Positions 34,634 to 49,812 of a DNA stretch of 64,000 nt are shown here, piece after piece. Within the stretch, counting starts at the first letter, position 1. Each line of letters begins with the position of its first letter. The position numbers and the translations under genes are program-made. The stretch spans positions 1 through 64,000 of the forward strand of contig DXBP01000064.1 of the NCBI GenBank assembly GCA_019116445.1, written 5' to 3'. A model generated the notes under the pieces. It ran no database searches, had not been told where the DNA came from, and was given only the letters and a program-made list of their open reading frames with translations. The stretch is from Candidatus Gemmiger excrementigallinarum. Lineage in GTDB: Bacteria > Bacillota > Clostridia > Oscillospirales > Ruminococcaceae.

Positions 34634-34656
34634 TCGTTCTTTCCTCCCCTGAAAAA

Positions 34657-34690
34657 AAGGCGAAGATGTCCGGGTGGGCATCTTCGCCTT
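34657..34690 (-). terminator. terminator after the HAD hydrolase, end of glycan locus
   Basis: Minus strand: 12-bp perfect stem AAGGCGAAGATG with its complement, ten-base loop, then TTTTTTT. It probably ends the long minus-strand glycan transcript. Confidence 0.92.
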
Positions 34691-35294: not shown

Positions 35295-35307
35295 GGGAAA
35301 ACTCCTT

Positions 35308-37230
35308 TCAGCGGCGGGCATGGTCGGCGGCATCGTTGGCCACCATCACCAGCCCGGCGTAGAACATGGCCGCCCGTTTGCGGTCCTTGGAAAGTTTGTA
35401 GGGCATCAGCCGCAGCCAGTGGATGACCTCGTGCATGAGGATGCTGTCCAGCTGGCGGGGATAGCGCCGGCCCAGGTCCGCCATCAGGTCGGCGAACAGG
35501 GCATCGTAGGCCGCCGAGCGGGTCAGGGCAAAGTCGATGTGGTTCTGCTGCACCGTGACCCGGGGGGTCATCATCATAAACTCGTACCCGCCGTGCAAAC
35601 TTTGCAGCAGCTTGCCGTAGTCCAGGAAGGGGCTTTCGTGCAGGTTGCCGGTGTTGGGGTCGATGAGATACCAGCCCTTGTCGTCGGTGCGGCAGATGAT
35701 GTTTTCAATGGTCAGATCGCCGTGGATGGTCGCCACCGGGTCCTCGGCAAAGAGAGCCTGCAGCCGTTCGTGGGCAAACAGCCAGTCCAGCTGGCTCAGG
35801 TTTTTGTACTCCCTGCCGTTGATCCACACGGTGGGGTATTCCATCAGATCGTGCAGCGTTCGGGCTTCGCGCAGTTTCTGCAGGTTGCCGTCCACCTTTT
35901 TGCCGATGTACTGTTCGATCTTGGCCGCATCAGCCGCCGTCGCCGTGGGGTGGTAGAGCTTTTCTTCCAGGGTGTCCAGCACTTCGTGCAGCACGGCGGC
36001 GCTTTTTTCCACCGGGTTGGAGTGCAGGTACCGGAACATCCCCACGGCCTGGGGATCATAGGTCATATCGTACCAGCAGCAGTCGGCATCCTCCCCGGCG
36101 CGTAGGATCTCGCACAGGGGCAGGCGGTCCTTCTGGGCCCGCAGCCAGTGCAGCTGCTCGGCCAATTTCTGGCCGTCGGCACCAAAGGCGTATTTGCGGT
36201 AGAAAGTACGGGTCTTGTCCATGCAGAGCATGGTGGTGGCGTTGGACCCGGCAGAAAAATCCTGTAAAATCGTGATGTCCTGATTCATTTGCAGGAACCG
36301 GTCCACCCAGGCCTTGTTCTGCAGCCCGAAATACTGGCTCAAAAACACCGCCCGGTCCTGGGGGTCAGCCTGGGGCAGCAGGTTCAGGTAGCTTTCCCCT
36401 GCCGGGGCCGCCGCCGTAGCCTGATTCACCGCGCCGCGCACCTTCTCCGGCAGCAGCGTAGCCAGCCACATGAGAACCAGCGGCACCAGATACCAGGCGA
36501 TCATACCGGCGCAGGCTGCCGCCGGGGCGCCGTCCAGCACACCGCCGGGCAGCACCACACGCAAATCTCCTGCCGACTGACCGAACAACGCGCCGAACAC
36601 ATCCACCAGACGCATGGGCTGCCCGGCCGCGGTCAAAGCCGCCGCCAGCGCCGTGTAGGAGCCCAGATACGCTGCCCACATGACCACGGTATTCACCGCC
36701 AGCCGCAGCAGATTGACCCGGCGCAGGTCCTTGAAGGTATTGATAAGGCTCCAGCAAAAGACCATGCCGTCCAGCTTGAGGGTATCGTTGAAGATGCCGC
36801 ACACCGCCAGGCAGATGCGCTTGATGCCGTCCCGCAGCACGACCACCACCACAAGGGCGACGGCCAGCAGTACGGCGAACAGCAGATAATACCGCGCCGC
36901 CCCACGGGCGCTTTCGCCCCCCTGGCCCAGCAGCGCAAAGACGCCGAAGCCCACCGCCACGAACCACACATCCAAAAAGCGGTCCATAATGACGGTGGCC
37001 AGGGCAAAGCCGACACCGGATTTCATCCTTCGGCCCACAAAGACCGCCCGGAACACATCACCCAGGTGCAGCGGCAGGATGGTATTGATGGCATACCCAC
37101 CCGCCATGCCCCGCAGCATGGCACCCCGCCGGGGCCGTTCATAGATGCGCACAAACTGTTCCCACCGCAGCAGGCGGAAGGCGTGACCGGCCAGGAGCAG
37201 CAATATGGAAAGAATCAGATAGACAGCCAT
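35308..37230 (-). CDS. flippase-like membrane domain fused to an aminoglycoside-phosphotransferase-type kinase domain
   Basis: 640 residues in two parts. Residues 1-285 are a multi-helix membrane domain of the LPG-synthase/YbhN/AglD2 group, with its conserved LRWEQFVRI and GGYAINTILPLHLGDVFRAV. Residues about 300-640 are soluble and kinase-like: HGDLTIENI catalytic loop at 503-511 and metal-binding IDPNTG at 523-528, with YRKYAF as a candidate ATP-lysine strand. The kinase may phosphorylate a sugar or alcohol that the neighbouring nucleotidyltransferase activates. Start overlaps the preceding stop by one base (TAATG). I know no characterised protein with this order. Confidence 0.8.
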   Translation of the reverse strand: MAVYLILSILLLLAGHAFRLLRWEQFVRIYERPRRGAMLRGMAGGYAINTILPLHLGDVFRAVFVGRRMKSGVGFALATVIMDRFLDVWFVAVGFGVFALLGQGGESARGAARYYLLFAVLLAVALVVVVVLRDGIKRICLAVCGIFNDTLKLDGMVFCWSLINTFKDLRRVNLLRLAVNTVVMWAAYLGSYTALAAALTAAGQPMRLVDVFGALFGQSAGDLRVVLPGGVLDGAPAAACAGMIAWYLVPLVLMWLATLLPEKVRGAVNQATAAAPAGESYLNLLPQADPQDRAVFLSQYFGLQNKAWVDRFLQMNQDITILQDFSAGSNATTMLCMDKTRTFYRKYAFGADGQKLAEQLHWLRAQKDRLPLCEILRAGEDADCCWYDMTYDPQAVGMFRYLHSNPVEKSAAVLHEVLDTLEEKLYHPTATAADAAKIEQYIGKKVDGNLQKLREARTLHDLMEYPTVWINGREYKNLSQLDWLFAHERLQALFAEDPVATIHGDLTIENIICRTDDKGWYLIDPNTGNLHESPFLDYGKLLQSLHGGYEFMMMTPRVTVQQNHIDFALTRSAAYDALFADLMADLGRRYPRQLDSILMHEVIHWLRLMPYKLSKDRKRAAMFYAGLVMVANDAADHARR

Positions 37231-37982
37231 TATTCCAACGCCTCAAATCCCGCGTTGTTTTCCGGTTTTTCGGCGGTGCGGTACTCATCCGGCGTGCCGA
37301 AGGGCAGGTGCAGATCGGTGGCAAAGCCGCGCACCGCCGCGCCGTGCTCCGCCAGCACGTTGTAAATGCCCGAAACAAAGAATTCCTTGTATTCGCAGGC
37401 GTGCAGATATTCGGCACAGGCATCGGCGTAGGTCTTTTTATCCTTGAAGTAGTAGGCGCCGCAGATGGCATCGTGGCTGACCACCTGCTTTTCCACCGTG
37501 TGGCAGACATTGCCGTCCGCCCCGTACTGCAGGTAGCTGTAGGCCGGGGAATCGCTCTCAAAGGTGAGCAGCGCCCCCGCCGGGCCTTCGGCAAAGTTGC
37601 CCTGGGCACAGAATTCGTTGAAGGACCGGCACAGGAACAGATGGTCGCAGTCGTTGAAGAGCAGCGGTTCCCCGTCGGGCAGGCCTTCGGTGCCTTTCAG
37701 CGCCGTGATGGCCGCCCCGGCGGTGACTTCCGGCAGGGCCACGATGCGGGCGTCCGGCCAATAGGCACGGATTTTGGTATCAATGGCAAAGTCCCGGATA
37801 TGTTCTTCCAGCACCACAAAGGTGAGGTCGGCACAGTCCACGAATTTTTCCACGCTGCGGGTCGCCCAGTAAAAGAAGGGCTTGCCGTGAATTTCGATGA
37901 GGGGTTTGGGGCAGACGAAGCCGTTTTCAAAAAAGCGGCTGCCCCGGCCCGCCATGGGCAGGATCAGATGCAGTTTGGGCAT
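37230..37982 (-). CDS. sugar (or polyol) phosphate nucleotidyltransferase
   Basis: 250 residues, GT-A-like nucleotidyltransferase. N-terminus LILPMAGRGSRFFENGFVCP-KPLIEI has the NTP loop and the pyrophosphate-binding Lys; LLFNDCDHLFL supplies an acidic metal site. No beta-helix follows. The nucleotide and sugar cannot be told. CAAGGAGGGAAGCCTT precedes the ATG. Coupling with the kinase fusion downstream suggests a salvage-type route: phosphorylate, then activate. Confidence 0.88.
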   Translation of the reverse strand: MPKLHLILPMAGRGSRFFENGFVCPKPLIEIHGKPFFYWATRSVEKFVDCADLTFVVLEEHIRDFAIDTKIRAYWPDARIVALPEVTAGAAITALKGTEGLPDGEPLLFNDCDHLFLCRSFNEFCAQGNFAEGPAGALLTFESDSPAYSYLQYGADGNVCHTVEKQVVSHDAICGAYYFKDKKTYADACAEYLHACEYKEFFVSGIYNVLAEHGAAVRGFATDLHLPFGTPDEYRTAEKPENNAGFEALE

Positions 37983-38006: not shown

Positions 38007-39035
38007 TCAGGCGTTGTCCCGGGCGGCCAGCATTTTGCATTCTTCGGCGATCACCCGGGAAAGTCCGGTTTCCATATCCACCTGGGGCACCCAGCCGTAG
38101 GCTTCTTTGGCGTGGGCGTTATCGCAAAGGCTGAACTTGTTCACCTCGTGGTCCAGGATCTCCTCCTTGATGCCGTAGGCGCCGCCGTACAGTTCGGGGT
38201 ACTTGGACCAGTAATGGCTGGAGGGGCAGTACTTGGCCTCGATCTCCTTGCCCATCAGGCGGCAGGCGGTGGCGTAGAGTTCCCGCACCGAGTAGCTCTG
38301 GTTGCTGGAAACATTCACCGCGTCAAAGCCGGACTGGGGCCGTTCCACCACCCGCAGCGCCAGGGCGATGAGGTCATCCACATAGATATAATCCCGGCGC
38401 TGGTTGCCGTCGGAGTGGAATTCCGGCGTGCGGTCATAGTACAGTTCCCGGATCATATACCCCACAAAGGGCGGCTGCTTGCGCAGGCAGTCGATGTGGG
38501 GGCCGTAGACGTTGGCAAAGCGCAGGCAGGTCACCGTCATGCCGTAGGTATCGGCAAAGCTCTGGCAGAACCGCTCGCCGCAGTACTTGGTGTTGGGATA
38601 GATGAGCGTGGGCGGGTTGAAGGAAGTTTCCACCGTGGGGAATTCCGTTTCGTTCTCATACATGGCGTTGGTGGAAGCCTGTACCAGCTGCCTGACGCCG
38701 GTGCGGCGGGCACATTCCAGCAGATGCACCAGGCCCAGGGTGTTCACTTCCACCGCCTGCACAGGGTCGCTCTGGCAGTCGGGCAGCGGGGCGATGCCCG
38801 CAATATTGTACACCACGTCGAACTTTTCCGCCTCAAACAAGGCCGGGATGGCCTCCCGGTCCCGGATGTCCATGCGGCGCACCTCGGGGCCGAAATCGTG
38901 GTCCTCAAACTTCAGGTTGTCCAGGTTGCCGTAGGAGAAGTTGTCAATACCCACGACCTCATCGCCGCGCTTCCACAGCGCGTGCCACAGCTGGCCGCCG
39001 ATAAACCCGGCGGCGCCCGTTACCAGAACTTTCAT
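38007..39035 (-). CDS. NAD-dependent epimerase/dehydratase (extended SDR)
   Basis: 342 residues. NAD loop VTGAAGFIGGQLWHAL at the N-terminus; Ser in ASTNAMYEN and YPNTKYCGE give the Ser-Tyr-Lys catalytic set (YxxxK). Substrate-domain piece QRRDYIYVDDLIALAL is typical of UDP-glucose 4-epimerases and related enzymes. In this locus it could provide UDP-Gal/GalNAc or another epimer; the specificity is not readable. TAAGGAGGTCTTTGT precedes the ATG. Confidence 0.9.
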   Translation of the reverse strand: MKVLVTGAAGFIGGQLWHALWKRGDEVVGIDNFSYGNLDNLKFEDHDFGPEVRRMDIRDREAIPALFEAEKFDVVYNIAGIAPLPDCQSDPVQAVEVNTLGLVHLLECARRTGVRQLVQASTNAMYENETEFPTVETSFNPPTLIYPNTKYCGERFCQSFADTYGMTVTCLRFANVYGPHIDCLRKQPPFVGYMIRELYYDRTPEFHSDGNQRRDYIYVDDLIALALRVVERPQSGFDAVNVSSNQSYSVRELYATACRLMGKEIEAKYCPSSHYWSKYPELYGGAYGIKEEILDHEVNKFSLCDNAHAKEAYGWVPQVDMETGLSRVIAEECKMLAARDNA

Positions 39036-39047
39036 ACAAAGACCTCC

Positions 39048-39842
39048 TTACTGCTGCACCGGGATCTCGGTGTAGGTGTATGCGTCAATGATCTTGCTGC
39101 GCCATTCCCGGGCCACAAAAGCCTTGGGCCCGCGCAGATACCGCCCGCAAAGTTTCAGCAGGCTGATGCCAAAACTGGTGAGCTTATTGTTGCTGACCTG
39201 ATCCTCTTCCCGCCAGCTGATGGGGAAAAACAGCACCTTCTGCTTCAGCTGGCACAGGGCCAGGATCATGCAGTCGTTGAAATACAGCGTATCGGGGAAT
39301 TTTTTGTAGTATTCGTTTTTCAGGGGCGCCACGGCGTAGAGGTTCAGCCCGCTGCCCAGGTCGGTGATGCGCTTGCGGGCCACCAGGGTGAACAGGGCGT
39401 TGAACCCGTGGTTGCCCACCACACGCAGGGTGCTGTAGCCCTGGATGCGGCTGCCTTTCATGAAGCGGGAACCCAGGCAGCAATCGTACTTTTTATAGGT
39501 GCCGTCCTGCAGAATGGGCAAAAGGTCCGCGATGGCCCCCTGGTCGTCGCCGTGGAGCACCACCAGGTGCTCATACCCGTGGGCGGCGGCGTAACCGAAA
39601 GCCACCTTGTGGCTGCCGCCCAGGCCGTAGTTTTCATCGTTGCGCAAAAGGCGCACCGGAGCGTCCGGGTGGCGGCGGCGCCAGTCCTGGACGGCTTCTT
39701 CGGTACCGTCGGTGGAGCGGTTGTTCACCACGATGCACTCCCCCACCCAGGGAGCAACGCGGGGGTCCAGCAGCTGGGACAGCACCCGGGGGACCTGTTT
39801 TTCGCAATTATAGGCAGGGATAAATACCAGCAGTTTTTCCAT
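39048..39842 (-). CDS. GT2 glycosyltransferase (DPM1/DolP-like)
   Basis: 264 residues, GT-A fold. LLVFIPAYNCEKQVPRVLSQ starts the nucleotide-binding strand; VVLHGDDQGAIADLL contains the metal-binding acidic motif; GSRFMKGSRIQGYSTLRVVG is typical of polyprenyl-phosphate sugar transferases. No membrane helix is evident. It may make a lipid-linked sugar donor for the GT-C-like membrane protein upstream in the operon. AAAGGAGCCTGACTG precedes the ATG. Confidence 0.9.
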   Translation of the reverse strand: MEKLLVFIPAYNCEKQVPRVLSQLLDPRVAPWVGECIVVNNRSTDGTEEAVQDWRRRHPDAPVRLLRNDENYGLGGSHKVAFGYAAAHGYEHLVVLHGDDQGAIADLLPILQDGTYKKYDCCLGSRFMKGSRIQGYSTLRVVGNHGFNALFTLVARKRITDLGSGLNLYAVAPLKNEYYKKFPDTLYFNDCMILALCQLKQKVLFFPISWREEDQVSNNKLTSFGISLLKLCGRYLRGPKAFVAREWRSKIIDAYTYTEIPVQQ

Positions 39843-39923: not shown

Positions 39924-41645
39924 TTATTGGGCCCAGCCATCCACCACCAGCACCTGCAAACTGGCGGTGCCGTGGGTGACGGTATACCGGTCGGTAATGG
40001 CGAAGTTTTCCTCCAGCCAGGCGTGGAACTGGGCCATATCCCGCACTTCGGCGTCATCGTAGAGGATGACATCAGGCAGTTTATCCGGCACCAGCGTATA
40101 GTAGTCCTCAAACCGGGGGTCGCTGTCGGTACCCGAAATTACCGAGGCCTGGGCCACCGTCAGGGTGCCGTCGGCCATCAGGAAGCCAAGGCCGTTCTGT
40201 TCTCCGATGGCCTGCAGCACCGCCTGGCCCGCAAAGGGTTCCAGCGCCTCGTACAGACATTCCTGCATATCGGCAGCCTTTTCATCGGCCCGGATGCCCT
40301 TGGCGGGACCGGTTTCAATGGGTACCAGCGGTGTATCGGTAATGTTGGCAGGCTTCCAGCCGGTAGTCTGCACACACCACAGACGGCAGACCGTCAGAAA
40401 TACCAGCATAGCCCCCAGGCAGGCCATTGCCACCCGGCGCAGGGCCAAAGTGTCCCAGCGGAGAAGCACCAGCAAACCGCACAAGGCGGGCCATGTCAGA
40501 TACAAAAAGGTGGCAGGCAGCCCCAGAACCGAGGAACGCACGATCAAAACATAGGCAGCCAGCCCCGGCAGGTAACCCAGCCAAAACAATGCCGCCGTGC
40601 CGGGCTTGCGCCGGGCGCGCCAGAAAACCCAGGCCCCGGCCAGCACCGCCACCGGCACAAACTGCCGTTCGTCCAGGCTGCTGTCTTTTACCGCCCGCAG
40701 GGTGCACTGCAGGGTGGCCAGTATGGTCCATACCCCCAGCAGCAACGCCATGCGGTCCCGCGCAAAGGCCTTGCGGCGGTACAGGTACGCACAAAGCAGC
40801 AGCGCCGCGGCCAGCGACCAGCGCCAGCCCTGAAGCACCGAGAGCGCCTGCTGCCCCAACTGGACCAGACGTTCGGCGGCGGTAAAGCCGTACTGGGGAT
40901 CATCCAGAATCAGTTTGACCCTTGCCAGGAAAGCCCCCACATCAAACCCAAAGCCCTGCAGCGCCCAGAGCAAAAACGCTCCGCCGCAGACCGCACAGGT
41001 TGCCAGCAGCACCCAGGCGCCCCGGGGCACCCCGGCCAGGCGGCGTTCGCCGCCCCGGCGTCCCATCAGAAAGAGTCCCAGCCACAGGAACGGAAACGCC
41101 GCCACACTTTGGGGGTAAGCCAGAAAGCTGAAACAGGCACACACCGCGCCCACCGCCACCAGCCAGGGGCGGCGGAAACCGCGGGTCACATAGTGGTGGA
41201 AGCACAGGAAAGCCGCCACCGTAAAATAGAACTGCTGGCCGATATAATCCGGCCCCACAAACCATTTGGGCGCATAGAGGAAGAGCACCAGCGCAGCCAG
41301 ACCCGCGCCGCCGCGCCCCAGATCCCGGCGGAATTCCCGGTAAAACACCCAGCACATAGCCGCCTTGCAGGCCAGCGTGACCACCCGGACAAACACCAGC
41401 AGCCCGGTGGTGGTACCGGTAACCGCCCGGTACAGCCACACCAGCAGGGCAGGCGGCAGGGCGCAGAGCTGGTGGGGTTCCCACATCTGGGCAAAAAGGC
41501 GATCCCCCTGCACCAGCCGGAATCCCAGGGAGAGGGCGTAGACTTCGTCGATCTCCAGCCCCACAAAAACCTGCCGTACCATCACCAGCACACAGGCGGC
41601 CACCAGCACGCCCCAGGCGATGCGCACCCCACGTTTCGGCATCAT
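39924..41645 (-). CDS. polytopic membrane protein, GT-C (GT39/ArnT-like) glycosyltransferase
   Basis: 573 residues from ATG 41645, which overlaps the GT6 stop (ATGA). About 11-12 hydrophobic helices, then a soluble C-terminal domain of about 130 residues. The first outer loop has the acidic pair in VGLEIDEVYALSLGFRLVQG, the place of the catalytic Asp/Glu in GT-C enzymes, followed by MWEPHQ. Such enzymes move sugar from a polyprenyl-phosphate carrier outside the membrane. Family membership is by topology and loop motif, so moderately certain. Confidence 0.75.
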   Translation of the reverse strand: MMPKRGVRIAWGVLVAACVLVMVRQVFVGLEIDEVYALSLGFRLVQGDRLFAQMWEPHQLCALPPALLVWLYRAVTGTTTGLLVFVRVVTLACKAAMCWVFYREFRRDLGRGGAGLAALVLFLYAPKWFVGPDYIGQQFYFTVAAFLCFHHYVTRGFRRPWLVAVGAVCACFSFLAYPQSVAAFPFLWLGLFLMGRRGGERRLAGVPRGAWVLLATCAVCGGAFLLWALQGFGFDVGAFLARVKLILDDPQYGFTAAERLVQLGQQALSVLQGWRWSLAAALLLCAYLYRRKAFARDRMALLLGVWTILATLQCTLRAVKDSSLDERQFVPVAVLAGAWVFWRARRKPGTAALFWLGYLPGLAAYVLIVRSSVLGLPATFLYLTWPALCGLLVLLRWDTLALRRVAMACLGAMLVFLTVCRLWCVQTTGWKPANITDTPLVPIETGPAKGIRADEKAADMQECLYEALEPFAGQAVLQAIGEQNGLGFLMADGTLTVAQASVISGTDSDPRFEDYYTLVPDKLPDVILYDDAEVRDMAQFHAWLEENFAITDRYTVTHGTASLQVLVVDGWAQ

Positions 41646-42493
41646 GGACGATCCCCTTTCAGCCGTTTGTGCAGCAGCGCATCCCGGGCGTACCACAGAT
41701 AGGGCAGATAATTTTCCCCGAAGGCTTCCCACTTGCGGGCCAGCCAGCTGCGGGGGCGGCCGTCCTTGTGCTTGACCGCCGCCACATCAAAAAAGCGGGC
41801 TTTATCCAGAACCACGATCTTGGGTTCAAAGGGCAGGTCCCAGCCTTCGGGGTACCAGTAGGCCGGGGTCAGCAGACGGTAGTCGCTGCGCTCGGCGGCA
41901 TAGCGGTTGAGCTGGCTTTCGTCGTGCCACAGGGCAATGACGCCGTGGGCCAGGTCCTCCTCGGTGCGGCGTTCCAGCTCATGGCACAGAGCCAGAAAGG
42001 CCGCCTCCGTGCCGCCGTTGAGCCCGCCGGAAACGTAATCCCGCCCGCAGTTGTAAGGGATATAGGCGGTGCTTCTGGGGTTGCGGTCGTAGGAATAGAA
42101 CATCGGCTTTTTGTTCCAGAAGCCCGGCTGCTGCACCAGCAACAGGTTTTCCCCTTTTTCGGGCCGGGGCAGGAATTCCTCCGCCGTGACGGTCTTTTGG
42201 CAGACCAGGTTGGCGTTGAAGAAGAAGAGGAAATCACACCCGGCCAGGGCCGCCTCCTGGCTCAGGAAGATGGAAAACCGGCGCAGGGTGCTGTAGGGCC
42301 AGTCGTAGGCTTCCTGGGCGATGCGGCGGACATTAGGGGCATCCTCAAATTCGATGTGCGGGGCATCGGTAAAGACGAAGTATTCCTTTTGGCAGCCGGG
42401 CAGGAAATTCTGCTCAAAGCTGCGGTAAAATTCCGGCCAGAACACGGTATACTTGCCGGTGCAAAGGTAGAGCATTCCGATTTTTGGCATCAT
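41642..42493 (-). CDS. GT6 family glycosyltransferase (ABO blood-group transferase homologue)
   Basis: 283 residues, ATG 42493 overlapping the flippase stop. Strongly resembles bacterial GT6 enzymes: MLYLCTGKYTVFWPEFYRSF, YVFTDAP-type FVFTDAP, FLFFFNANLVC, GRDYVSGGLNGG, LWHDESQLNRY and YWYPEGWDLPFEPKI. The metal site is NAN (93-95), the NXN form of bacterial GT6 members, not the DXD of mammalian ABO enzymes. The family adds Gal or GalNAc in alpha-1,3 linkage, often to a fucosylated galactose. A GT11 fucosyltransferase three genes upstream could make that acceptor. No membrane anchor. Confidence 0.93.
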   Translation of the reverse strand: MMPKIGMLYLCTGKYTVFWPEFYRSFEQNFLPGCQKEYFVFTDAPHIEFEDAPNVRRIAQEAYDWPYSTLRRFSIFLSQEAALAGCDFLFFFNANLVCQKTVTAEEFLPRPEKGENLLLVQQPGFWNKKPMFYSYDRNPRSTAYIPYNCGRDYVSGGLNGGTEAAFLALCHELERRTEEDLAHGVIALWHDESQLNRYAAERSDYRLLTPAYWYPEGWDLPFEPKIVVLDKARFFDVAAVKHKDGRPRSWLARKWEAFGENYLPYLWYARDALLHKRLKGDRP

Positions 42494-44022
42494 GCGCTCC
42501 TTTTGTGTCTGAGTTTTTGCCAGATTCCGGCGGCGTACTGCCGCAGATAGGCGGCATCGCTGCCCCAGCCGTAGACCACCAGGTTGAGGAGGTTGGGCAC
42601 GATGCAGACGATCACGGCCCGGGGCACCAGGCCCAGCCAGCCCTGGATGGGCACGGCTTCGCAGAGCATCCAGGTGCCGCCCAGGCAGGCGGCCAGGGTG
42701 ACAAGGTGCAGCAGCTGCATACGCAGATAATGGCCCATACTGCCCTGCATATACCGCCGGAACACCACCACCACGCGCCCCGCCCACATAATACAGTGGG
42801 CCACCACGGTGGCGATGAGGGCGCCGGTGATATCGAAGCGCGGGAACAGCGCAAAGCTGAGGGCCAGATTGACGGTGGCCGAAGCGACCATGAACCACTG
42901 ATCCTGTTCAAAGTGGCCCAGCACCGCCCGGTAGGAGCCCAGCATCCGGTGGTTCCAGCCCACATACTCGTTCAGGCAGAACACCAGCACAAAGCCCATG
43001 GGCAGCAGCCAGTCCTCACCCATCCAGGCCGCCATGAAGGACTGGAACAGGCAGAAGTAGGCGGTGGCCACAAAGCTGCCGAAGAGGTAGCTGAACAGGT
43101 CCATGCCCCAGAACACCTGTTTGTCGTGGTCATTGGCCGCGGCGGATTTATCGTAGACGATGTTGCCGATGGCCGCGGCAAAACTGTCCATGATTTTGTT
43201 GCCCAGGTCGGTAGCGCTGGTGGAGATGTTGGTATAGTTGCCCAGCAGCGTGGTCTGGACCGAGCCGCCCATGCGGGCGGTGACGATGGTATCGGAGGAG
43301 CCGTAGATGGTATTGGAGAGCCGGTGCACCAGATAGTACCGCAGATCGTGGAAGATGCCCAGGTCCTTGAAGTCCTGCAAACTCACCTTGACGTCGTGGA
43401 CGTAGGGGAAATCCTTGCGGAAGCGCCGGGCAATGACCAGGTTGGCGCAGACGTTGCAGACGATGGCCACGCTGAAGTAGAGCACATAGTTGGGGAACCA
43501 CAGGGACACAGCGATCTTGGCCAGGGAGGTAAGCACGTTGAAGCAGAAGTCGATGCGGGTGCACAGATACCCCTGCTGGGTGCAGGTGTACATAAGCCGC
43601 CGGGTGACAAGAAAATAGCTGCACAGCGTGGAAACCACGTTGAGCGCATAGACCGTGTAGCCGGTGGCCAGGGGCACATCGGGCATGATCCAGGGCAGGG
43701 CGGCAGCGCCCAGCAGGGCCAGCAGGGCGATGGCCAGGCCCACGGCCCGGTAGGCCCACTTGTACATGGACATGTACTTGCTGATCTTCTCGGCATTTTT
43801 GGCGGCGATCTGCTCATACAGGCGGTAGCTGATGACGCTGCCCACGCCGAATTCGGCGATGGAGAAGAAGTTGAACAGCTGGGTGACCACCTGGGAGGCG
43901 GTGCTGATCTGAGTGCCGAAGTTGTAGACCAGCAGTTTGCGGGTCACCAGGCCCAGCAGCAGCAACAGCAGGCTGGACCCCACCGCATAGGCCATATTGA
44001 TAAGGGTACGTCTGGTTCGCAA
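42490..44022 (-). CDS. Wzx-type polysaccharide flippase
   Basis: 510 residues with about 12-14 membrane helices, MOP superfamily. Features: N-terminal LINMAYAVGSSLLLLLLGLV, IAEFGVGSVISYRLYEQIA and DTIVTARMGG. It would move the lipid-linked repeat unit made by the surrounding glycosyltransferases across the cytoplasmic membrane. It overlaps the GT6 gene by four bases and starts seven bases after a GT2 gene. No wzy polymerase or ligase is certain in this window. Confidence 0.9.
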   Translation of the reverse strand: MRTRRTLINMAYAVGSSLLLLLLGLVTRKLLVYNFGTQISTASQVVTQLFNFFSIAEFGVGSVISYRLYEQIAAKNAEKISKYMSMYKWAYRAVGLAIALLALLGAAALPWIMPDVPLATGYTVYALNVVSTLCSYFLVTRRLMYTCTQQGYLCTRIDFCFNVLTSLAKIAVSLWFPNYVLYFSVAIVCNVCANLVIARRFRKDFPYVHDVKVSLQDFKDLGIFHDLRYYLVHRLSNTIYGSSDTIVTARMGGSVQTTLLGNYTNISTSATDLGNKIMDSFAAAIGNIVYDKSAAANDHDKQVFWGMDLFSYLFGSFVATAYFCLFQSFMAAWMGEDWLLPMGFVLVFCLNEYVGWNHRMLGSYRAVLGHFEQDQWFMVASATVNLALSFALFPRFDITGALIATVVAHCIMWAGRVVVVFRRYMQGSMGHYLRMQLLHLVTLAACLGGTWMLCEAVPIQGWLGLVPRAVIVCIVPNLLNLVVYGWGSDAAYLRQYAAGIWQKLRHKRSA

Positions 44023-44028
44023 AACGGG

Positions 44029-45036
44029 TTATCCTTTCTTGCAGCTTTGGCGGCGGGAGGCCAGCCACAGCGTAAAGCGGGGGCCGAACAGCCGCATCAG
44101 GGTGCGGAACATCCGCCAGTCCCGGCGGGTGTTGACCTCGGTGCCGTGGGCGTACAGCGGGCGCAGCTGTTTGAGGTATTTCAGGCAGGCCCGGCGCAGA
44201 GCGGCGTCGGGCACGGCGGCGGTGCGGGCCTGGGGCCAGAACACATCCGCCGCCGCATCCTGCATGACGGCGTAGGTCTTTGCATCCACATGGCCGGCGG
44301 CCGCCAGCGCCGCCAGCCGCCGCTGGGCGGCGGCCAGGGCCTTGAACCGCTTGGGAAGGTTTTTGGCGTCGGTGAGCAGGCTTCCCTGCCGGCCCACCCG
44401 GTAGTGGGTGAACACCACATCCAGGAAATAGAGCCGCTGGCATTTTGCCAGCAGCAGCAGGTCAAAGGGCCAGTCCTCGGCCCAGCGCACATCAGGCCAG
44501 AACCGCAGGTTGTTTTCCGCCAGCCAGGCCCGGCGCAGGCAGTATTTCCATACCGACCAGTGCCCCGCCGTATACAGGGCGTGGAGCCGCTCGCCATAGT
44601 CGGAACTGTCAAAGGGGCCGGGCAGCAGCCGCAGGCCCTGGTGTTCGGTCAGGGTGCCGTCGGGCAGCCATTCCAGGTGCTTGCCGATGTACCAGTCATA
44701 ACCGGGATGTTCCGCCAGTTCCCGGCGCAGCGCCGCCAGCAGCCCCGGGGCCATGGCGTCGTCACTGTCCAGGAAGAGAATCCAGGTTCCCGTGGAGGCT
44801 TTCAGCCCCGTGTTGCGGGCGGCGGCCAGGCCGCCGTTTTCCCGGTGGATGGCCTGCACGCCGGGGATCTCCGCCGCAAAGGCATCGCAGAGCTGGGGGC
44901 ACATATCGGTGGAACCGTCGTCCACCAGGATGCACTCCCAGTCCCGGGGGCCTTCCTGCTCGGCCACGCTCTTGATGCAGGCCGCCAGATAGTTCTGCAC
45001 GTTGTACACCGGTATGATGATGGAAAACAGCGGCAC
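44029..45036 (-). CDS. GT2 glycosyltransferase
   Basis: 335 residues. LFSIIIPVYNVQNYLAACIK, CILVDDGSTD and WILFLDSDDAM (DXD-type metal site) place it in GT2; the C-terminal half is helical with HYRVGRQGSLLTDAKN. Translation starts at GTG 45036, with AAAGGGGGCACCGCC in front. Transfers one sugar of the repeat unit, identity unknown. It follows the GT11 gene by 22 bases. Confidence 0.92.
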   Translation of the reverse strand: MPLFSIIIPVYNVQNYLAACIKSVAEQEGPRDWECILVDDGSTDMCPQLCDAFAAEIPGVQAIHRENGGLAAARNTGLKASTGTWILFLDSDDAMAPGLLAALRRELAEHPGYDWYIGKHLEWLPDGTLTEHQGLRLLPGPFDSSDYGERLHALYTAGHWSVWKYCLRRAWLAENNLRFWPDVRWAEDWPFDLLLLAKCQRLYFLDVVFTHYRVGRQGSLLTDAKNLPKRFKALAAAQRRLAALAAAGHVDAKTYAVMQDAAADVFWPQARTAAVPDAALRRACLKYLKQLRPLYAHGTEVNTRRDWRMFRTLMRLFGPRFTLWLASRRQSCKKG

Positions 45037-45058
45037 GGCGGTGCCCCCTTTCTTGGAA

Positions 45059-45976
45059 TTATCGGGTTTCGATCAGCTGCCAGTCGGGCTGGTACAAGGC
45101 CGTCTGCTTGGTGTGGGCATACCACCGGTCGGGAGCCCAGACCCGGCGGTCCTCCCCGGCCAGATACTGTGCCCACCAGCTGTAGGTGGAATTGCTGAGG
45201 ATGAAGCCCCGGCACAGGGCCATAAGGTTCATATCCCCCACGGCATCCCCCCGGGGCATAAAGACGGCGGGCAGGCCCGCGGTATCCAGGTTGGCTTTGG
45301 CCCAGTCGATGTCGTCGGAAAAAACGAACACCGTGGCCTCGGGGTGTTCTGCAGCCACCGCTGCGGCGGCCCGGGCGTAGTAGGCCGGGGTGCAGACCTG
45401 CAAAATCTCGTTTTCCGGTTTGCAGTAGTCCCCCCGGCGCAGATGCAGCGCCACCGGGTACCCGGCGGCACGGATTTTTTCCGTCCATGCCCCGGCCGGG
45501 GCCTGTCTGGCCTGCAGTTCCGCCCGGATGGTGGGGGCAAAATCGGCAAAGTAGGCTTCGCTCTGAAAATACCCCCAGGCCAAAAAATCCCGGGCCGGGC
45601 CGCGGTGCGCCGGCGTGTAGCCGTCGGTGGCAAAATGCAGCCCCAGCAGGTTCAGCACCGGGGCGCAGCGGCGCTCCCAGCTGTGCCAGTCCCGGGCCAT
45701 CAGCCCTTGGCGCTGCTCGTATTTGATCATCAGCGCCTTGGCGGCATTCTGCCGTTTGAGGTGCTCTTTGGCAAAGCCCGGCTGGGCCAGAATCCTGACT
45801 TCCGGGGCTAGGTTCAGCGCTTCCAGGGCGCAGACCGTGTGGGCGGGAGCGCCGTCCCGCCAGTCCTGCCGGTCCAGCAGGGTGACGCCTTCGCCGCAGC
45901 GCAGTCCCAGCGCCCGGGCAAAGGCGTAAATGAACATCTGGTTGCCCAGGCCACCGGCCAGTTCCGCGTAGATCAT
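45059..45976 (-). CDS. alpha-1,2-fucosyltransferase (GT11)
   Basis: 305 residues. ELAGGLGNQMFIYAFARAL (5-23) and the GDP-fucose site HLRRGDY (178-184) define the family; AIILSNSTYSWW-type motif is FILSNSTYSWWAQYL near 262-276. Such enzymes (FutC, WbnK, WbsJ) add L-fucose in alpha-1,2 linkage to galactose, giving the H-antigen core. GDP-fucose synthesis genes are not in the window. ATG overlaps the preceding GT4 stop (ATGA). Together with the GT6 gene it suggests a blood-group-like product. Confidence 0.95.
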   Translation of the reverse strand: MIYAELAGGLGNQMFIYAFARALGLRCGEGVTLLDRQDWRDGAPAHTVCALEALNLAPEVRILAQPGFAKEHLKRQNAAKALMIKYEQRQGLMARDWHSWERRCAPVLNLLGLHFATDGYTPAHRGPARDFLAWGYFQSEAYFADFAPTIRAELQARQAPAGAWTEKIRAAGYPVALHLRRGDYCKPENEILQVCTPAYYARAAAAVAAEHPEATVFVFSDDIDWAKANLDTAGLPAVFMPRGDAVGDMNLMALCRGFILSNSTYSWWAQYLAGEDRRVWAPDRWYAHTKQTALYQPDWQLIETR

Positions 45977-47079
45977 GCCCTGCCTCCCAGTTGGTCATAG
46001 AGTTGTTCCATCCGGGCAGCGGCGGTGTGCAGCTCGTACCCGGCGGCGGCCAGTTCCGCCCAGTGGTCGGCGTGGGGGCCATAGCCCGCGATCTCTTGGG
46101 CTGTGGCCACCCACTGGCTCAGCGGGGCATCCAGGGGCAGGAAATGCACCAGGTCGGTCACCGCGCCGTCATTGGGCACATTGGTGGAGGCCAGGCAGGG
46201 CACGCCGCAGCCCTGGGCTTCCACCAGCGTGACGGGGCTGCCCTCGAAGTTGCTGGGCAGCAAAAACAGGTCGAAAGCGTTCATATAGGCGGGCACATCG
46301 CTCTGCACCCCCGCAAAGATCACCCGGTCGGTGATGCCGTGACGGTCGATGGCCGCCCGCATCTCCTCTTCCATCTCGCCGCCGCCCACCAGCAGCAGCT
46401 TCCAGGCGGGATCGGCGGCCGCCAGCGCCGCGAAAATTTCCAGCAGGAACAGCGGGTTCTTCTGGTGGTTGAGCCGTCCCACAAAGCCTGCCAGGCGGTC
46501 GGTTTCGGTGATGCCGTACTTTGCCCGGGTGGCCGCCCGGGCCGCCGGGTCGGGGTAAAAGCGGCCCTGGTCCACGGCGTTGCAGGCCACGGCAAAATTG
46601 GGTTTGTGGTCGATGTGGTCCCCGAAGACGAACCGCCCCGCCGCCACGCCGCAGCCGAGGAAATAATCCGCCGCCAGCTGGTAGACGCCGTGAGCTGCCC
46701 GCCAGGTCAGCGTCAGCGGCGGGTAGACGATGTGGCTGTGGACGATGATCTTGGCCCGGGGGCACAGTGCACGCATCATCACACAGACCAGCGCGCCGAT
46801 CTTGCTGGCGGTGTGGTAGTGGATGATGTCGTAGTCCTTGTGGGTGCGCAGATGCTGCCGCAGCGCCCGGATGCGGTCCTTTTTATGGTCGGGCACCGGG
46901 AAGATGTGCACCCCGGCGGCTTCCAGCGCGGAGGCCGAGGAGGCCTGGTCCGGCGGGCACTGGCCCACAAAAAGGTCCACGTGGTAGCGGGTCAGGTCCA
47001 TGTGGAGCAGCAGGTTCTGCACATAGCGCTGCACGCCGCTCTGCACACCCAGGTGGTTGCCGATCATGAGAATCTTCAT
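45973..47079 (-). CDS. GT4 glycosyltransferase
   Basis: 368 residues, GT-B fold. GNHLGVQSGVQRYVQNLLLH at the N-terminus, the donor-domain start LAGFVGRLNHQKNPLFLLEI, and the EX7E region LLPSNFEGSPVTLVEAQGCG. Retaining enzyme using a nucleotide sugar, identity unknown; resembles capsule EpsF/GlcT-type members. AAATAAGGAAGACTT precedes the ATG. Nine bases separate it from the methyltransferase gene. Confidence 0.93.
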   Translation of the reverse strand: MKILMIGNHLGVQSGVQRYVQNLLLHMDLTRYHVDLFVGQCPPDQASSASALEAAGVHIFPVPDHKKDRIRALRQHLRTHKDYDIIHYHTASKIGALVCVMMRALCPRAKIIVHSHIVYPPLTLTWRAAHGVYQLAADYFLGCGVAAGRFVFGDHIDHKPNFAVACNAVDQGRFYPDPAARAATRAKYGITETDRLAGFVGRLNHQKNPLFLLEIFAALAAADPAWKLLLVGGGEMEEEMRAAIDRHGITDRVIFAGVQSDVPAYMNAFDLFLLPSNFEGSPVTLVEAQGCGVPCLASTNVPNDGAVTDLVHFLPLDAPLSQWVATAQEIAGYGPHADHWAELAAAGYELHTAAARMEQLYDQLGGRA

Positions 47080-47088
47080 AAGTCTTCC

Positions 47089-47766
47089 TTATTTAATGAG
47101 GTCCACCACGATGGACAGGGCACGGTAGGGGTCCTGCACCCGCTTGTCGTGGTCCGGTGTGCGGTCCACATACCCCAGGGTATAGTCGATGGGCCGGGTG
47201 ACCGAGTTCCCGTTTTCGTCGTAGTAGTGGTAGAATTCCACCTTGGCAAAGGGGCTTTGGTCGGTGAGGGCCTTGACGTTCTCCCACAGGGGGAACCACA
47301 GGTGCGCACCGCCCCCCAGTTTGCCGTCCCGGTACCAGCCGCCGCCATCCGGGTCAAAGACGATGTTGCCCGCGCTGTCCCGCTGGCAGCGGTTGGCATA
47401 GACATCGCACCGGTAGTCCGGCACCGAAATGCGCATCCGCGCCCCCGGTTTGAGGATGCGGTACACTTCGGCCAGCACGGCGGGCAGTGCCTCGTAGGGG
47501 ATGTGCTCCAGCACATCCTCCGCCTGGTAGAAGTCCACGCTGTTGTCCTTGAGGGGGTAGGGCCGGGTGATGTCGTGCTTGATGGTGTTCCAGTCCGCCT
47601 GCTTGATGGACAGGCCGATGAAGCCCTGATTTTCATACAGCGGCACCGCCGGGATGTCCCCCGCGTAGAGCCGCAGCACATTGAAGGTGGCGGCCTCGGC
47701 AAAGGTCATTTTGTGGAACAGGGTGTCCCCCAGCTTCCAAAGCCGTTTTCTCCAGGTAAGTTCCAT
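47089..47766 (-). CDS. class I SAM-dependent methyltransferase-like protein
   Basis: 225 residues from ATG 47766 (after AGAAGGAGCAAATC). YQAEDVLEHIPYEALPAVLAEVYRILKPG is the Methyltransf_11-type motif (shown here as one segment of the fold: DVLEHI then ILKPG). The glycine-rich SAM loop is poorly conserved (FIGLSIKQADWNTIKHDI), so activity is not certain. Predicate-methyltransferases of this group are common in O-antigen and capsule loci and could cap or modify a sugar. Confidence 0.82.
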   Translation of the reverse strand: MELTWRKRLWKLGDTLFHKMTFAEAATFNVLRLYAGDIPAVPLYENQGFIGLSIKQADWNTIKHDITRPYPLKDNSVDFYQAEDVLEHIPYEALPAVLAEVYRILKPGARMRISVPDYRCDVYANRCQRDSAGNIVFDPDGGGWYRDGKLGGGAHLWFPLWENVKALTDQSPFAKVEFYHYYDENGNSVTRPIDYTLGYVDRTPDHDKRVQDPYRALSIVVDLIK

Positions 47767-47798: not shown

Positions 47799-48704
47799 TT
47801 ACCAGTAACTGCCGCCTTCCACGGCTTCCCGGTGGTCGATGCCCTCGTTTTCCGCCGGGCGCACCCAGGCGTCGTTGTACAGTCGGGAGAGCACGGGGTG
47901 GGTATCCCACCGCTTGCCCTTGATGCCGAACAAAAGCTGGGTGGCGCCGCTCATCTGGATGGCGGTGTGGCCGGTGTCCCGGGCGTGGGCCGCCAGGGGC
48001 AGGCTGTAGGCCCCCGCCCCCACAATGGCCACCTCATAGTCGGCGGCGTCCATCTGGCGCTCCATGGCGTCCAGGGCGTCGAACCAGCTGGCATAGCCGG
48101 TTTCCTGCCCGGCCAGGCCCTGCACCGCCCGGATGACCGTCAGGCTGCCCAGTTCCGGCAGCACCTCGGTACCGGGGAAAAGCTGCTCCCGCTTGGCGTA
48201 CTGGCGCAGGATGGTGTCCTTGAAGGGATGCACCACCAGCACCTTTTTGCCCGCCAGGGCGCTGCTCCAGGGCTTTTTGTGGTAGTAGGGTTCCAGCGCC
48301 CGGAGTTTGGCAAACACCGTGCCCTGGCATCCCCGGATGACCTCCCGCTCGGCGCCCACGTCCCACAGGGCCATCAGGTCGGCACTCTGGGCACAGGCCA
48401 CGTAATGCTCACAGAAGCGGCGGAGGGTTTCGTCGTCGGTGGGAAACACCCCGGACAGCGCCCGGATGTCCTGCCGGGTGCGGTCGGTAAAGTGTCCGTC
48501 GTGGGCCATCCAGTCGGCCACGGTGCGCATCTCGGTGGCACCGCAGCGGGCGAACAGGAAGGGCCCGCCCCGCAGAATGGCCGCCCGGGCCAGGTCGTTG
48601 CCGGCCTCCGCTTCCAGCACCGGCACGCCCCGGTACTTCCACCGGAACCGCCAGCCTTTGTACAGGTTGCGGGCTGCTTCCAGCAGCGCGTTATCGTTGT
48701 CCAT
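47799..48704 (-). CDS. GT-D-fold-like glycosyltransferase (DUF1792-type)
   Basis: 301 residues, cytoplasmic. GPFLFARCGATEMRTVADWM (about 47-66) matches in position and style the acidic DXE-type catalytic motif region (RIGDGE-like) of GT-D enzymes such as streptococcal GlyD/DUF1792. The C-terminal AIVGAGAYSLPLAAHARDTG and LLFGIKGKRWD form a conserved nucleotide-fold end often seen in capsule genes. Assignment is from pattern memory. It overlaps the GT4 gene upstream by 14 bases. Confidence 0.65.
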   Translation of the reverse strand: MDNDNALLEAARNLYKGWRFRWKYRGVPVLEAEAGNDLARAAILRGGPFLFARCGATEMRTVADWMAHDGHFTDRTRQDIRALSGVFPTDDETLRRFCEHYVACAQSADLMALWDVGAEREVIRGCQGTVFAKLRALEPYYHKKPWSSALAGKKVLVVHPFKDTILRQYAKREQLFPGTEVLPELGSLTVIRAVQGLAGQETGYASWFDALDAMERQMDAADYEVAIVGAGAYSLPLAAHARDTGHTAIQMSGATQLLFGIKGKRWDTHPVLSRLYNDAWVRPAENEGIDHREAVEGGSYW

Positions 48705-49812
48705 GGGCAGCCTCCCGCTTGTTGGGCAGCAGCGTCAGCGCCAGTTCGGCGCTGTTCTGCCACAGAAAATGTTCGTTGATACGCTTTTGTGCGGCGGCGC
48801 CCATCTCGTCATCCACCCGGTCCAGGGCCGCGGCCATCGCCGCCACCGAATCGCAGAGGATGCCGCTGACGCCATCCTCGATGATAAGATCAGGCCCCGG
48901 CGCATGGCGGGCCACCGGCGGGCAGCCTGCATACATGGCTTCCAGCAGGCTCATGCCGAAAATCTCCTGATCGTTGAGGTTCACAAAGGCGTTGCAGGCG
49001 TGGTAGTAGACGTGCACCGCCGTGTTGGCCAGCTGGGGGATCAGGCGGCATCGGCAGGAAAGCCCTGCTTCCTCCAGCGCCGCCCGCAGGGCATCGCCCT
49101 GGCTGCCCTGGCCGATGATGATTGCCAGCCAGTCCGGGGCGGCCTTGAGCAGCGGCACCAGGTCCAGCGGCCGCTTGTAGGGGTCCAGCCGTCCCACAAA
49201 GACGAGGATCTTGGCCTGGGGGTCCAGCCCCACGGCCCCCCGCAGCTTGGCCCGCTCGGCGGGAATATCGGGAATGATGGCGGTATCCAGGCCCACGGGC
49301 ATCAGCCCGGCACAGGGCACGCCCAGGCTTTCCAGTTCGGCGGCCACCGCCGGAGTTTTGGCGTAGGTAGGCGTTTTTTTATAAATAGCCAGGTTGCGGC
49401 GCAGCAAAAGGTCCATGACAAAGCGTACCGCCCTGTGGTTGGAGGCGCTTTTCAGCGCGCCCAGCTGGCTGTAGAACACAATGCCGTGGCGGCGGCAGAA
49501 CCGGTAGAGCGACGGCACCCCGGGGGAGTTATCCCCCATCACATGGACGGCATCCACCCGCTCGTCCAGCAGAATCTGCCAGCTTTTGTAAAAGGCCTGG
49601 GAGCCCAGGGTGCGCACCGGCAGATAGTAGACCCTGACATTGGGTTCCGGTTCCTCCACCGTGGGGGCGGCGGCGTCCGGCGCGGGATAGAGCACGATGC
49701 CCCGGGCGCCCAGCGCCGCAAAGGCACGGGCCAGGCCCACTTCCTGCCGGTTATACAGGCCCTTGCGGCCCGAAGGCCCGCAGTAAAACTGCGGGATAGC
49801 GATGGTTTTCAT
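48691..49812 (-). CDS. GT4 glycosyltransferase
   Basis: 373 residues, GT-B fold. Donor-site start KILVFVGRLDPYKRPLDLVP and EX7E region QEIFGMSLLEAMYAGCPPVA. The N-terminal acceptor domain begins TIAIPQFYCGPSGRKGLYNR. Sugar unknown. ATG 49812 overlaps the preceding stop (ATGA), with a weak ribosome site, so translation is probably coupled. Confidence 0.93.
   Translation of the reverse strand: MKTIAIPQFYCGPSGRKGLYNRQEVGLARAFAALGARGIVLYPAPDAAAPTVEEPEPNVRVYYLPVRTLGSQAFYKSWQILLDERVDAVHVMGDNSPGVPSLYRFCRRHGIVFYSQLGALKSASNHRAVRFVMDLLLRRNLAIYKKTPTYAKTPAVAAELESLGVPCAGLMPVGLDTAIIPDIPAERAKLRGAVGLDPQAKILVFVGRLDPYKRPLDLVPLLKAAPDWLAIIIGQGSQGDALRAALEEAGLSCRCRLIPQLANTAVHVYYHACNAFVNLNDQEIFGMSLLEAMYAGCPPVARHAPGPDLIIEDGVSGILCDSVAAMAAALDRVDDEMGAAAQKRINEHFLWQNSAELALTLLPNKREAAHGQR

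Follow-up and report, generated by a model that had tools for sequence, protein, structure and literature searches.

The GT6 glycosyltransferase gene of Gemmiger (Bacillota) occupies a two-allele slot in a conserved glycan gene cluster, and its pairing with a GT11 fucosyltransferase gene is a trait of the genus. Pairing of the two families is known, and the two-allele slot is the new part; none of the literature matches listed reports such a GT6 slot in Gemmiger. The best explanation, to which we give a probability of roughly 0.6, is that the cluster adds a branched ABO-type cap to a lipid-linked oligosaccharide that is flipped outward, and that interchanging alleles fill the GT6 slot.

The gene cluster and its enzymes

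The analyzed window is a stretch of 64,000 nucleotides from an 83%-complete Gemmiger MAG (G000). The initial annotation had described a GT11 enzyme with the motifs GGLGNQMF and HLRRGDY, a GT6 enzyme with NANL, WHDES and YPEGW, and a Wzx flippase in one minus-strand operon of a gut Firmicute. All five motifs are present, and coordinates together with the fold of the flippase model bear out an operon-like cluster comprising GT11 (45059-45976), an NXN-type GT6 (41642-42493) and a MOP-fold flippase (42490-44022). Cluster genes are all encoded on the minus strand and, judged from coordinates, overlap or almost touch their neighbors. GT11 overlaps the adjacent GT4 gene by 4 bases and is separated by 22 bases from a GT2 gene, which lies 6 bases from the flippase gene; the flippase and GT6 genes overlap by 4 bases. 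The stretch 41642-45976, bounded by the stop codon of GT6 and the start codon of GT11, also encloses this GT2 gene (44029-45036; PF00535, 118.8 bits). The GT2 gene is absent from the position between GT11 and flippase in two congener loci (L089 and L098), and its product could possibly make the acceptor sugar.

The first gene of the cluster encodes a GT4 glycosyltransferase (50783-51946; PF00534, 82.2 bits), followed by a GINT1 N-terminal-like protein (49809-50786; PF24793, 85 bits), another GT4 glycosyltransferase (48691-49812; PF00534, 89.8 bits) and a weakly GT-D-fold-like protein (47799-48704; PF22882, 18.9 bits, under the cut-off of 27). A methyltransferase gene (47089-47763; PF08241, 33.1 bits) is found in the locus of only three of 29 congeners (L082, L089 and L097 of L081-L109), some of these loci being cut by contig ends. 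The GT4 gene adjoining GT11 (45973-47079; PF00534, 95.4 bits) is conserved in its order. Downstream of GT6 are genes for a weakly GT-C-like membrane glycosyltransferase (39924-41645), a further GT2 glycosyltransferase (39048-39842; PF00535, 51.3 bits) and a sugar-nucleotide epimerase/dehydratase of the SDR type (38007-39035; PF01370, 175.5 bits), for which the 25 best-scoring NCBIfam models all stay below their cut-offs. These are followed by genes for a nucleotidyltransferase-like protein (37230-37982; PF12804, 25.9 bits, slightly below the cut-off of 27) and for a fusion of an LPG-synthase/flippase-like membrane domain (PF03706, 59.8 bits) with an APH-type kinase-like domain (PF01636, 21.1 bits, sub-cut-off) at 35308-37230. 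The conserved cluster ends downstream with a HAD-family phosphatase gene (34737-35333; PF13419, 114.6 bits), which keeps its place in the order wherever a retrieved congener locus extends that far. Scanning the window for Rfam families and tRNAs returned nothing, and no invertible promoter is obvious by eye among the repeats of 33-54.5 kb.

The GT11 protein has 305 amino acids (PF01531, 100.7 bits against a cut-off of 23.9, E 1.2e-28) and is the sole GT11 found genome-wide in the MAG. We take HxRRGDY and GGLGNQM to be markers of the family. The latter is retained in all 29 congener GT11s, while the former region reads HLRRGDY in 18, HIRRGDY in four and HWRCGDY in seven. A PDB sequence search with GT11 gave no match. 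GT11 is predicted from its sequence to form alpha-1,2 linkages from GDP-fucose; alpha-1,3 links can also be made within the family, as by HhFT2 of Helicobacter hepaticus (PMC4202792).

The listed GT6 reading frame has 418 amino acids from a GTG start, and an ATG following AGGAG is the likelier start, yielding the 283 amino acids of 41642-42493. The protein scores 82.4 bits with PF03414 (cut-off 25) and 271.5 bits with NF041524 (cut-off 250). Its best solved relative is BoGT6a of Bacteroides ovatus (E 1.2e-58; 45% identity over 227 aligned columns). The alignment identifies N93-A94-N95 (NXN replacing DXD), E192 and K231 in the window GT6, a predicted alpha-1,3-GalNAc- or Gal-transferase of the NXN clade, presumably metal-independent. 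Family scores and conservation exclude a chance motif match.

The flippase has no Pfam or NCBIfam match. Foldseek matched its AlphaFold model (mean pLDDT 71) to the PDB structures of MurJ (E 4e-7) and WzxE (E 5e-5), which suggests a Wzx-type protein. Relatives with at least 61% identity occur in exactly the 30 Gemmiger genomes with GT11 and in none of the five without. The GT-C-like protein likewise belongs to no Pfam or NCBIfam family, and its low-confidence model (pLDDT 66) shows weak similarity to human OST chains (E 2e-5) and to ArnT (E 6e-4), with TM scores of at most about 0.4. Beyond this weakly GT-C-like neighbor of GT6, no Wzy polymerase was recognized in the cluster. Elsewhere in the window's genome, GalE is over its cut-off (C35) and a polyprenyl-glycosylphosphotransferase-like protein is under the cut-offs.

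GT11-GT6 pairing and the two-allele slot

The search of related genomes for co-occurrence, which the initial annotation had named as a check, recovered, in 28 of the 30 GT11-carrying Gemmiger genomes, a GT6 that lies 1,572-3,462 bases downstream of GT11 and has the same orientation. Both exceptions are contig ends, with the flippase of G023 split over two contigs, GT6 being on the second, and the contig of G012 stopping within the flippase. GT11, GT6 and the flippase are jointly missing in 5 of 35 Gemmiger genomes. The slot GT6 is no loose passenger, as it comes with the cluster and is missing where the cluster's flippase is missing. In a family sample of 396 genomes, both genes occur in seven, all of them Gemmiger; GT11 alone occurs in 14 others and GT6 alone in one. 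Outside Gemmiger, tblastn detected GT11 in the flanks (up to 10 kb) of 31 of 42 GT6 loci and did not see it at the other 11, where some flanks are short; HMMs combined with coordinates raise the number to 33 of 42. Near a GT6 are 45 of 56 GT11 copies, compared to 0.48 expected under random placement, an expectation ignoring the clustering of glycan genes. Genus-wide pairing and the presence of GT11 at most GT6 loci elsewhere thus make the tie between GT6 and a fucosylated acceptor well supported. A true A or B epitope as the product is not well supported. Conservation and the cross-phylum association of GT11 with GT6 support a shared product.

Among 12 close relatives, GT6 identity is 83% within an allele and 54% between alleles, while 12 of 13 other genes differ by less than 3 points between same-allele and different-allele pairs. 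The GT-C-like protein varies along with GT6 (72% identity in same-allele and 64% in different-allele pairs). The window GT6 is allele I by both residues and tree. Comparison with the flank tree shows that the slot alleles were exchanged repeatedly between species. Allele IIa has a single origin on that tree and none of 200 shuffles needed as few changes, hence exchange is repeated yet not free. Derivation of allele II from the C18-type paralogue was rejected, the slot GT6s forming one clade (100/100). As two deep GT6 classes swap while GT11 stays, the surface cap probably varies between Gemmiger species as a serotype does.

The glycan product and its rival readings

We infer as follows which sugars are joined, in what linkages and order, and how they are displayed. 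The cluster would assemble a lipid-linked oligosaccharide in the cytoplasm, on which GT11 may place L-fucose in a predicted alpha-1,2 linkage onto one hexose. GT6 might next attach GalNAc or Gal, with a predicted alpha-1,3 linkage, to the hexose fucosylated by GT11, creating an ABO-type branched cap. The Wzx-type flippase would then turn the unit outward to become part of the surface glycan. The acceptor hexose may be a sugar other than the galactose present in human H antigen, as the following substitution suggests. At the position of BoGT6a His122, for which we assume human His233 to be the counterpart, the window GT6 has Gln. In BoGT6a this His contacts the sugar bound at the acceptor site (PMC3961637). 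Gln122 is shared by 15 of the 29 slot GT6s of Gemmiger, as opposed to His in 29 of 31 GT11-linked GT6s outside the genus. This raises the possibility of an acceptor other than Fuc-alpha-1,2-Gal.

Such a substitution would also fit a locus in which GT11 and GT6 modify different sugars, the GT6 acceptor being unfucosylated or non-galactose and the product not blood-group-like. Allele IIb points in the same direction by lacking Trp before HDES (9 of 29 slot GT6s), though 6 of 31 GT11-linked GT6s elsewhere lack it as well. Gemmiger also has eight GT6 copies that belong to a second type (e.g., L001 in the window's own genome) and have no adjacent GT11, so GT6 need not act together with GT11. The further change of BoGT6a Thr134 to Ser carries little weight, because position 134 is variable among GT11-linked GT6s outside Gemmiger. 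We consider separate sugars unlikely: unless the two enzymes share an acceptor, the closeness of GT6 and GT11 in Gemmiger and at other loci is difficult to account for. Display of a genuine human-type A (or B) antigen on the cell would be a narrower form of the branched cap, with overlapping odds, and is unlikely on its own. BoGT6a, the closest solved relative, yields A-like products from 2'-fucosyllactose (PMC3961637), and bacteria are described that make B type through both families (E. coli O86) or A type through GT6 (Helicobacter mustelae) (PMC4202792). Gly124 and Gly157 of the window GT6 align with human positions 235 and 268, at which the human A-transferase has Gly (PMC4202792). Of the four human A/B donor positions, the comparison covered 235, 266 and 268, and 266 is Ser in the window GT6. 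Gly at two A-transferase positions suggests GalNAc as the likelier donor. Against a human-type antigen stand Gln122, the GDP-fucose genes not found in the MAG, and an identity to BoGT6a of 45%, from which the same acceptor and specificity need not follow. The blood-group-like glycan proposed in the initial annotation thus gains from the conserved pairing and loses from Gln122 and the fucose supply.

The supply of GDP-fucose was searched genome-wide with PF16363, which also detects E. coli Fcl (66.6 bits), and TIGR01472. The window's MAG contains no gmd over the cut-off, no Fcl and no PF07959 match indicating fucose salvage by Fkp. Its epimerases were considered as Gmd or Fcl but share 21-28% identity with the E. 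coli proteins and, where long stretches align, no more than 24% with the Fcl of a congener; among them, C38 is LegB-like, C35 is GalE and C7 looks by eye like RmlB/RmlD. Fcl and Fkp were searched in the window's genome only, and gmd across congeners. Gmd is over the cut-off in 26 of 30 Gemmiger genomes with GT11 and one of five without (Fisher p 0.006, ignoring kinship), and fcl adjoins gmd in seven of ten gmd loci examined, one fcl being clipped by a contig end. The case for fucose consequently depends on the congeners and on sequence that the MAG lacks. Loss of GDP-fucose synthesis in the window's species, with GT11 idle or otherwise fed, could also explain these absences, and G002 (93% complete) and G030 likewise have no gmd that exceeds the cut-off. 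Such a broken pathway is much the least probable reading. GT11 is intact, with 81-89% identity to the GT11s of its nearest relatives on the flank tree but 75-77% to those of G013 and G006. About 17% of G000 is missing, and three genomes without gmd plus one with fragments among 30 are, by estimate, about what incompleteness would produce.

Comparison with known systems

Natural antibodies to blood-group sugars are believed to be primed by gut bacteria, and Gemmiger is a common gut genus. A genus-wide A-like cap, if present, would make Gemmiger a new candidate stimulus of blood-group antibodies. A metagenome survey of the alpha-1,3-galactose epitope names Enterobacteriaceae, Pasteurellaceae and Lactobacillus in its abstract, and the word Gemmiger does not occur in its text (PMC6970434). 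The initial annotation knew of no GT11/GT6 pair in this bacterial group. None is reported among the top literature matches listed, though one Gram-positive GT6 was already known by 2014 (PMC3961637).

The E. coli O86 system likewise combines a GT11 (WbwK) and a GT6 (WbnI) in an H step followed by a B-type step (PMC4202792). WbnI, likened here by description, is a galactosyltransferase, whereas the Gemmiger GT6 has Gly at two A-type positions. O86 is also a Gram-negative O antigen, in contrast to a Gemmiger cluster that contains neither gmd nor fcl, has no recognized Wzy and carries a GT-C-like gene next to GT6. BoGT6a shares with the window GT6 the NXN type, catalytic Glu192, Lys231 and the WHDES region, but differs at positions 122 and 134 and comes from a host in the Bacteroidota. 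BgtA of Helicobacter mustelae is a GT6 making an A determinant reactive with anti-A (PMC4202792), and the likeness, again by description, is to an enzyme of a Gram-negative, unlike Gemmiger. Vertebrate GT6 enzymes are of the DXD, metal-dependent kind (PMC3961637). The human ABO locus resembles Gemmiger in having a single GT6 slot with alternative alleles and a constant H step, performed by GT11 in Gemmiger. We tentatively propose, as a somewhat unlikely extension, that Gemmiger is a bacterial parallel to ABO, in which a constant GT11 'H' step and recombining GT6 alleles that differ in their acceptor or donor sites would give related gut species differing blood-group-like caps, at least one of them an A-like epitope to which the human immune system is exposed. 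The Gemmiger alleles differ at about 46% of residues and are spread across the species compared, whereas human ABO alleles differ by a handful of substitutions.

The glycan cluster and its distribution in Gemmiger

The glycan cluster of the window occupies the minus strand from 51946 down to ~34737. In order of transcription, the upstream half encodes a GT4, a GINT1-like protein, a GT4, a weakly matching GT-D-like protein, a methyltransferase and another GT4. The core follows with GT11 (45059-45976), a GT2, a flippase (42490-44022) and GT6 (41642-42493). Downstream of GT6 are genes for a GT-C-like membrane protein, a GT2, an SDR, a nucleotidyltransferase-like protein, a flippase-like/kinase-like fusion and a HAD phosphatase. 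The grouping of GT11, GT6 and flippase in one minus-strand cluster, as read in the initial annotation, is borne out by profile scores for GT11 (PF01531, 100.7 bits) and GT6 (PF03414, 82.4 bits; NF041524, 271.5 bits). The flippase matched no family, and its predicted fold comes from a structure model, which matches MurJ and WzxE. Among solved structures, BoGT6a from Bacteroides ovatus comes closest to the GT6 (E 1.2e-58, 45% identity), and both enzymes carry NAN instead of DXD. The predicted GT-C resemblance of the gene 3' of GT6 is weak (best E 2e-5, TM ~0.4 or less, model pLDDT 66).

The fusion gene at 35308-37230 joins a membrane LPG-synthase/flippase-like domain to an APH-type kinase-like domain (kinase match below cut-off) and adjoins the nucleotidyltransferase-like and HAD phosphatase genes. 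We speculate that these genes could contribute to making an activated sugar of an unusual kind. A Class I amidotransferase gene (33923-34681) adjoins the cluster and has the same place in three further loci (L028, L029 and L103). Its best match is gamma-glutamyl-GABA hydrolase (below cut-off), with a weak match to gamma-glutamyl-CDP-amidate hydrolase. The methyltransferase gene (47089-47763) is present in the loci of 3 of 29 congeners (L082, L089, L097) and represents an insertion or loss inside the operon.

The GT11/GT6/flippase cluster is a trait of the genus Gemmiger. Among 35 genus genomes, GT6 was found in 29 and GT11 in 30. A search of related genomes for co-occurrence, proposed in the initial annotation, found that in 28 of these 30 GT6 shares the strand of GT11 and lies 1,572-3,462 bases downstream of it. 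Contig breaks account for the other two, inside the flippase in G012 and with the flippase split and GT6 on a second contig in G023. The flippase (61% or more) accompanies GT11 in all 30 genomes and is absent from the remaining five, one of which (G014) is 99% complete. Cluster gene order is kept as far as the fetched stretches reach, the methyltransferase and one GT2 being variable, and loci L081, L092 and L104-L109 deviate upstream or downstream of the core. Among named genomes, the GT6 loci closest to that of the window are from Gemmiger (82-91%), and the window's genome is assigned to this genus. In a family sample of 396 genomes from 126 genera, GT6 occurred in eight (7 of 8 Gemmiger and one other), and the single non-Gemmiger copy (G273) has two in-frame TGA codons. 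GT11 occurred in 21 (7 Gemmiger and 14 others, one of these under the cut-off), and only Gemmiger had both. Seven of 29 congeners carry HWRCGDY rather than HLRRGDY as the GT11 motif (L033, L034 and further loci among L081-L109).

Repeated exchange of the GT6 gene

The 29 GT6s found in this cluster fall into alleles I (15, including the window's), IIa (5) and IIb (9). Allele I carries Gln122, SGG and WHDES (BoGT6a numbering for 122 and 134). IIa and IIb share Pro134, His122 (13/14) and AGG (13) or EGG (1), and IIb is without the Trp before HDES. The cluster GT6 of L082 (G030) has an odd active site with Asp122, EGG and a His preceding HDES. All 38 Gemmiger GT6s included in the tree form one clade (100/99), within which the cluster GT6s and one orphan copy form another (100/100).

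Of 87 locus pairs whose GT11s and flippases share 75% identity or more, 35 had GT6 identities of 51-57% and 52 of 69-99%, and no pair fell in the gap. In a clade of 12 genomes (six per allele, 14 genes compared; G025 and G026 are near-copies), mean identities of same- versus different-allele pairs were 82.3 vs 81.6 for GT11, 88.2 vs 86.9 for the flippase, 81.2 vs 78.5 for GT2a and 91.6 vs 90.6 for GT2b, against 83.3 vs 53.8 for GT6 and 72.4 vs 63.6 for the GT-C-like protein. DNA identity drops close to the 3' terminus of the flippase gene, at ~42.6 kb, and rises again at the following GT2 (~39.9 kb). Mapped on a tree built from four proteins encoded upstream, alleles I and II require seven changes, and well-supported branches alone force five for I and four for IIb. 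Allele labels are clustered on this tree (none of 200 shuffles gave so low a count), and IIa arose once. Exchange of the GT6 gene has thus been recurrent, though not random. Genome G031 carries IIb in the cluster and an orphan allele I copy outside it (L118:5849-6685), which may be a donor in exchange or reflect a mixed assembly.

Predicted product and fucose supply

The pair had been read as possibly making a blood-group-A/B-like surface glycan. Four positions distinguish the human A from the B transferase (PMC4202792). At two of these, 235 and 268, the window's GT6 has Gly, as in the A enzyme, and it has Ser at 266. In BoGT6a, His122 and Thr134 contact a GalNAc moved into the acceptor site (PMC3961637); the window's GT6 has Gln and Ser. 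Position 134 is not diagnostic because it varies among 31 GT11-linked non-Gemmiger GT6s (P 14, T 12, D 3, N 2). His122 is kept in 29 of these 31, so Gln122 is a true departure. The acceptor may be other than H-type galactose. A second GT6 in the window's genome (G000:C18 63371-64213; L001:1471-2313), of a type found in eight copies in the genus, is 44% identical to the first and keeps His122 and Thr134. Contig C18 has no GT11; the neighbours read by eye as a long-tailed ABC-transporter ATPase and a tsaD-like gene.

The window's genome (2.38 Mb, 83% complete; window on contig C53) has no Gmd over the cut-off (best 84.8 vs 415 bits) and no Fkp. PF16363, which can also detect Fcl (66.6 bits for the E. 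coli protein), gave nine matches, none evidently Fcl or Gmd: they share 21-28% identity with the E. coli proteins and, over long stretches, no more than 24% with the Fcl of a congener. Across the genus, gmd passes the cut-off in 27/35 genomes, 26/30 with GT11 and 1/5 without (Fisher p 0.006, kinship ignored), and fcl adjoins gmd in 7 of 10 gmd loci examined, one fcl being cut by a contig end. Full gmd is lacking from four GT11-carrying genomes (G000, G002, G010 with fragments only, G030), for which missing sequence is the simplest reason, although the window's species may have lost GDP-fucose synthesis. Two genes in L010 (G000:C24) read by eye as FnlA/CapE-like and CapF-like, and the genome may encode UDP-L-FucNAc synthesis despite no GDP-L-fucose genes being seen.

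We suggest that GT11 would add fucose to a hexose in a lipid-linked unit, that GT6 would attach GalNAc (or Gal) to the same hexose, and that the flippase would export the unit. Swapping GT6 and the GT-C-like gene would alter the outermost chemistry, like serotype genes. The exchange would be compatible with phages, host antibodies or lectins as selective agents.

GT11 and GT6 in other bacteria

The search of named genomes found 54 GT6 loci, 42 of them (a few weak or partial) from Bacteroidota, candidate phyla, Campylobacterota and others outside Gemmiger; L031, titled Subdoligranulum, was counted with Gemmiger. GT11 lies within the retrieved flanking sequence (10 kb at most) in 31/42 by tblastn and near GT6 by coordinates in 33/42, and occurs anywhere in the genome in 35/42 (HMM). 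Overall, 45 of 56 GT11 copies are near GT6 versus 0.48 expected under random placement; this excess is real, its size being inexact because the null ignores glycan-gene clustering and nearness was judged by coordinates irrespective of contig. We regard this proximity as the strongest support for the view that GT6 and GT11 often act together in bacteria.

The initial annotation knew of no such pair in this bacterial group. Among the literature matches listed, whose coverage takes in few subscription papers, none deals with GT6 or GT11 of Gemmiger or with a blood-group-like glycan in this genus. The claim is tempered by the one exception to Gram-negative origin among bacterial GT6s known by 2014 (PMC3961637). 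GT6s with A- or B-like products occur in B. ovatus and H. mustelae, and E. coli O86 combines GT11 and GT6 with an A- or B-like product (PMC4202792, PMC3961637). The window's cluster resembles that of E. coli O86 in having both families.
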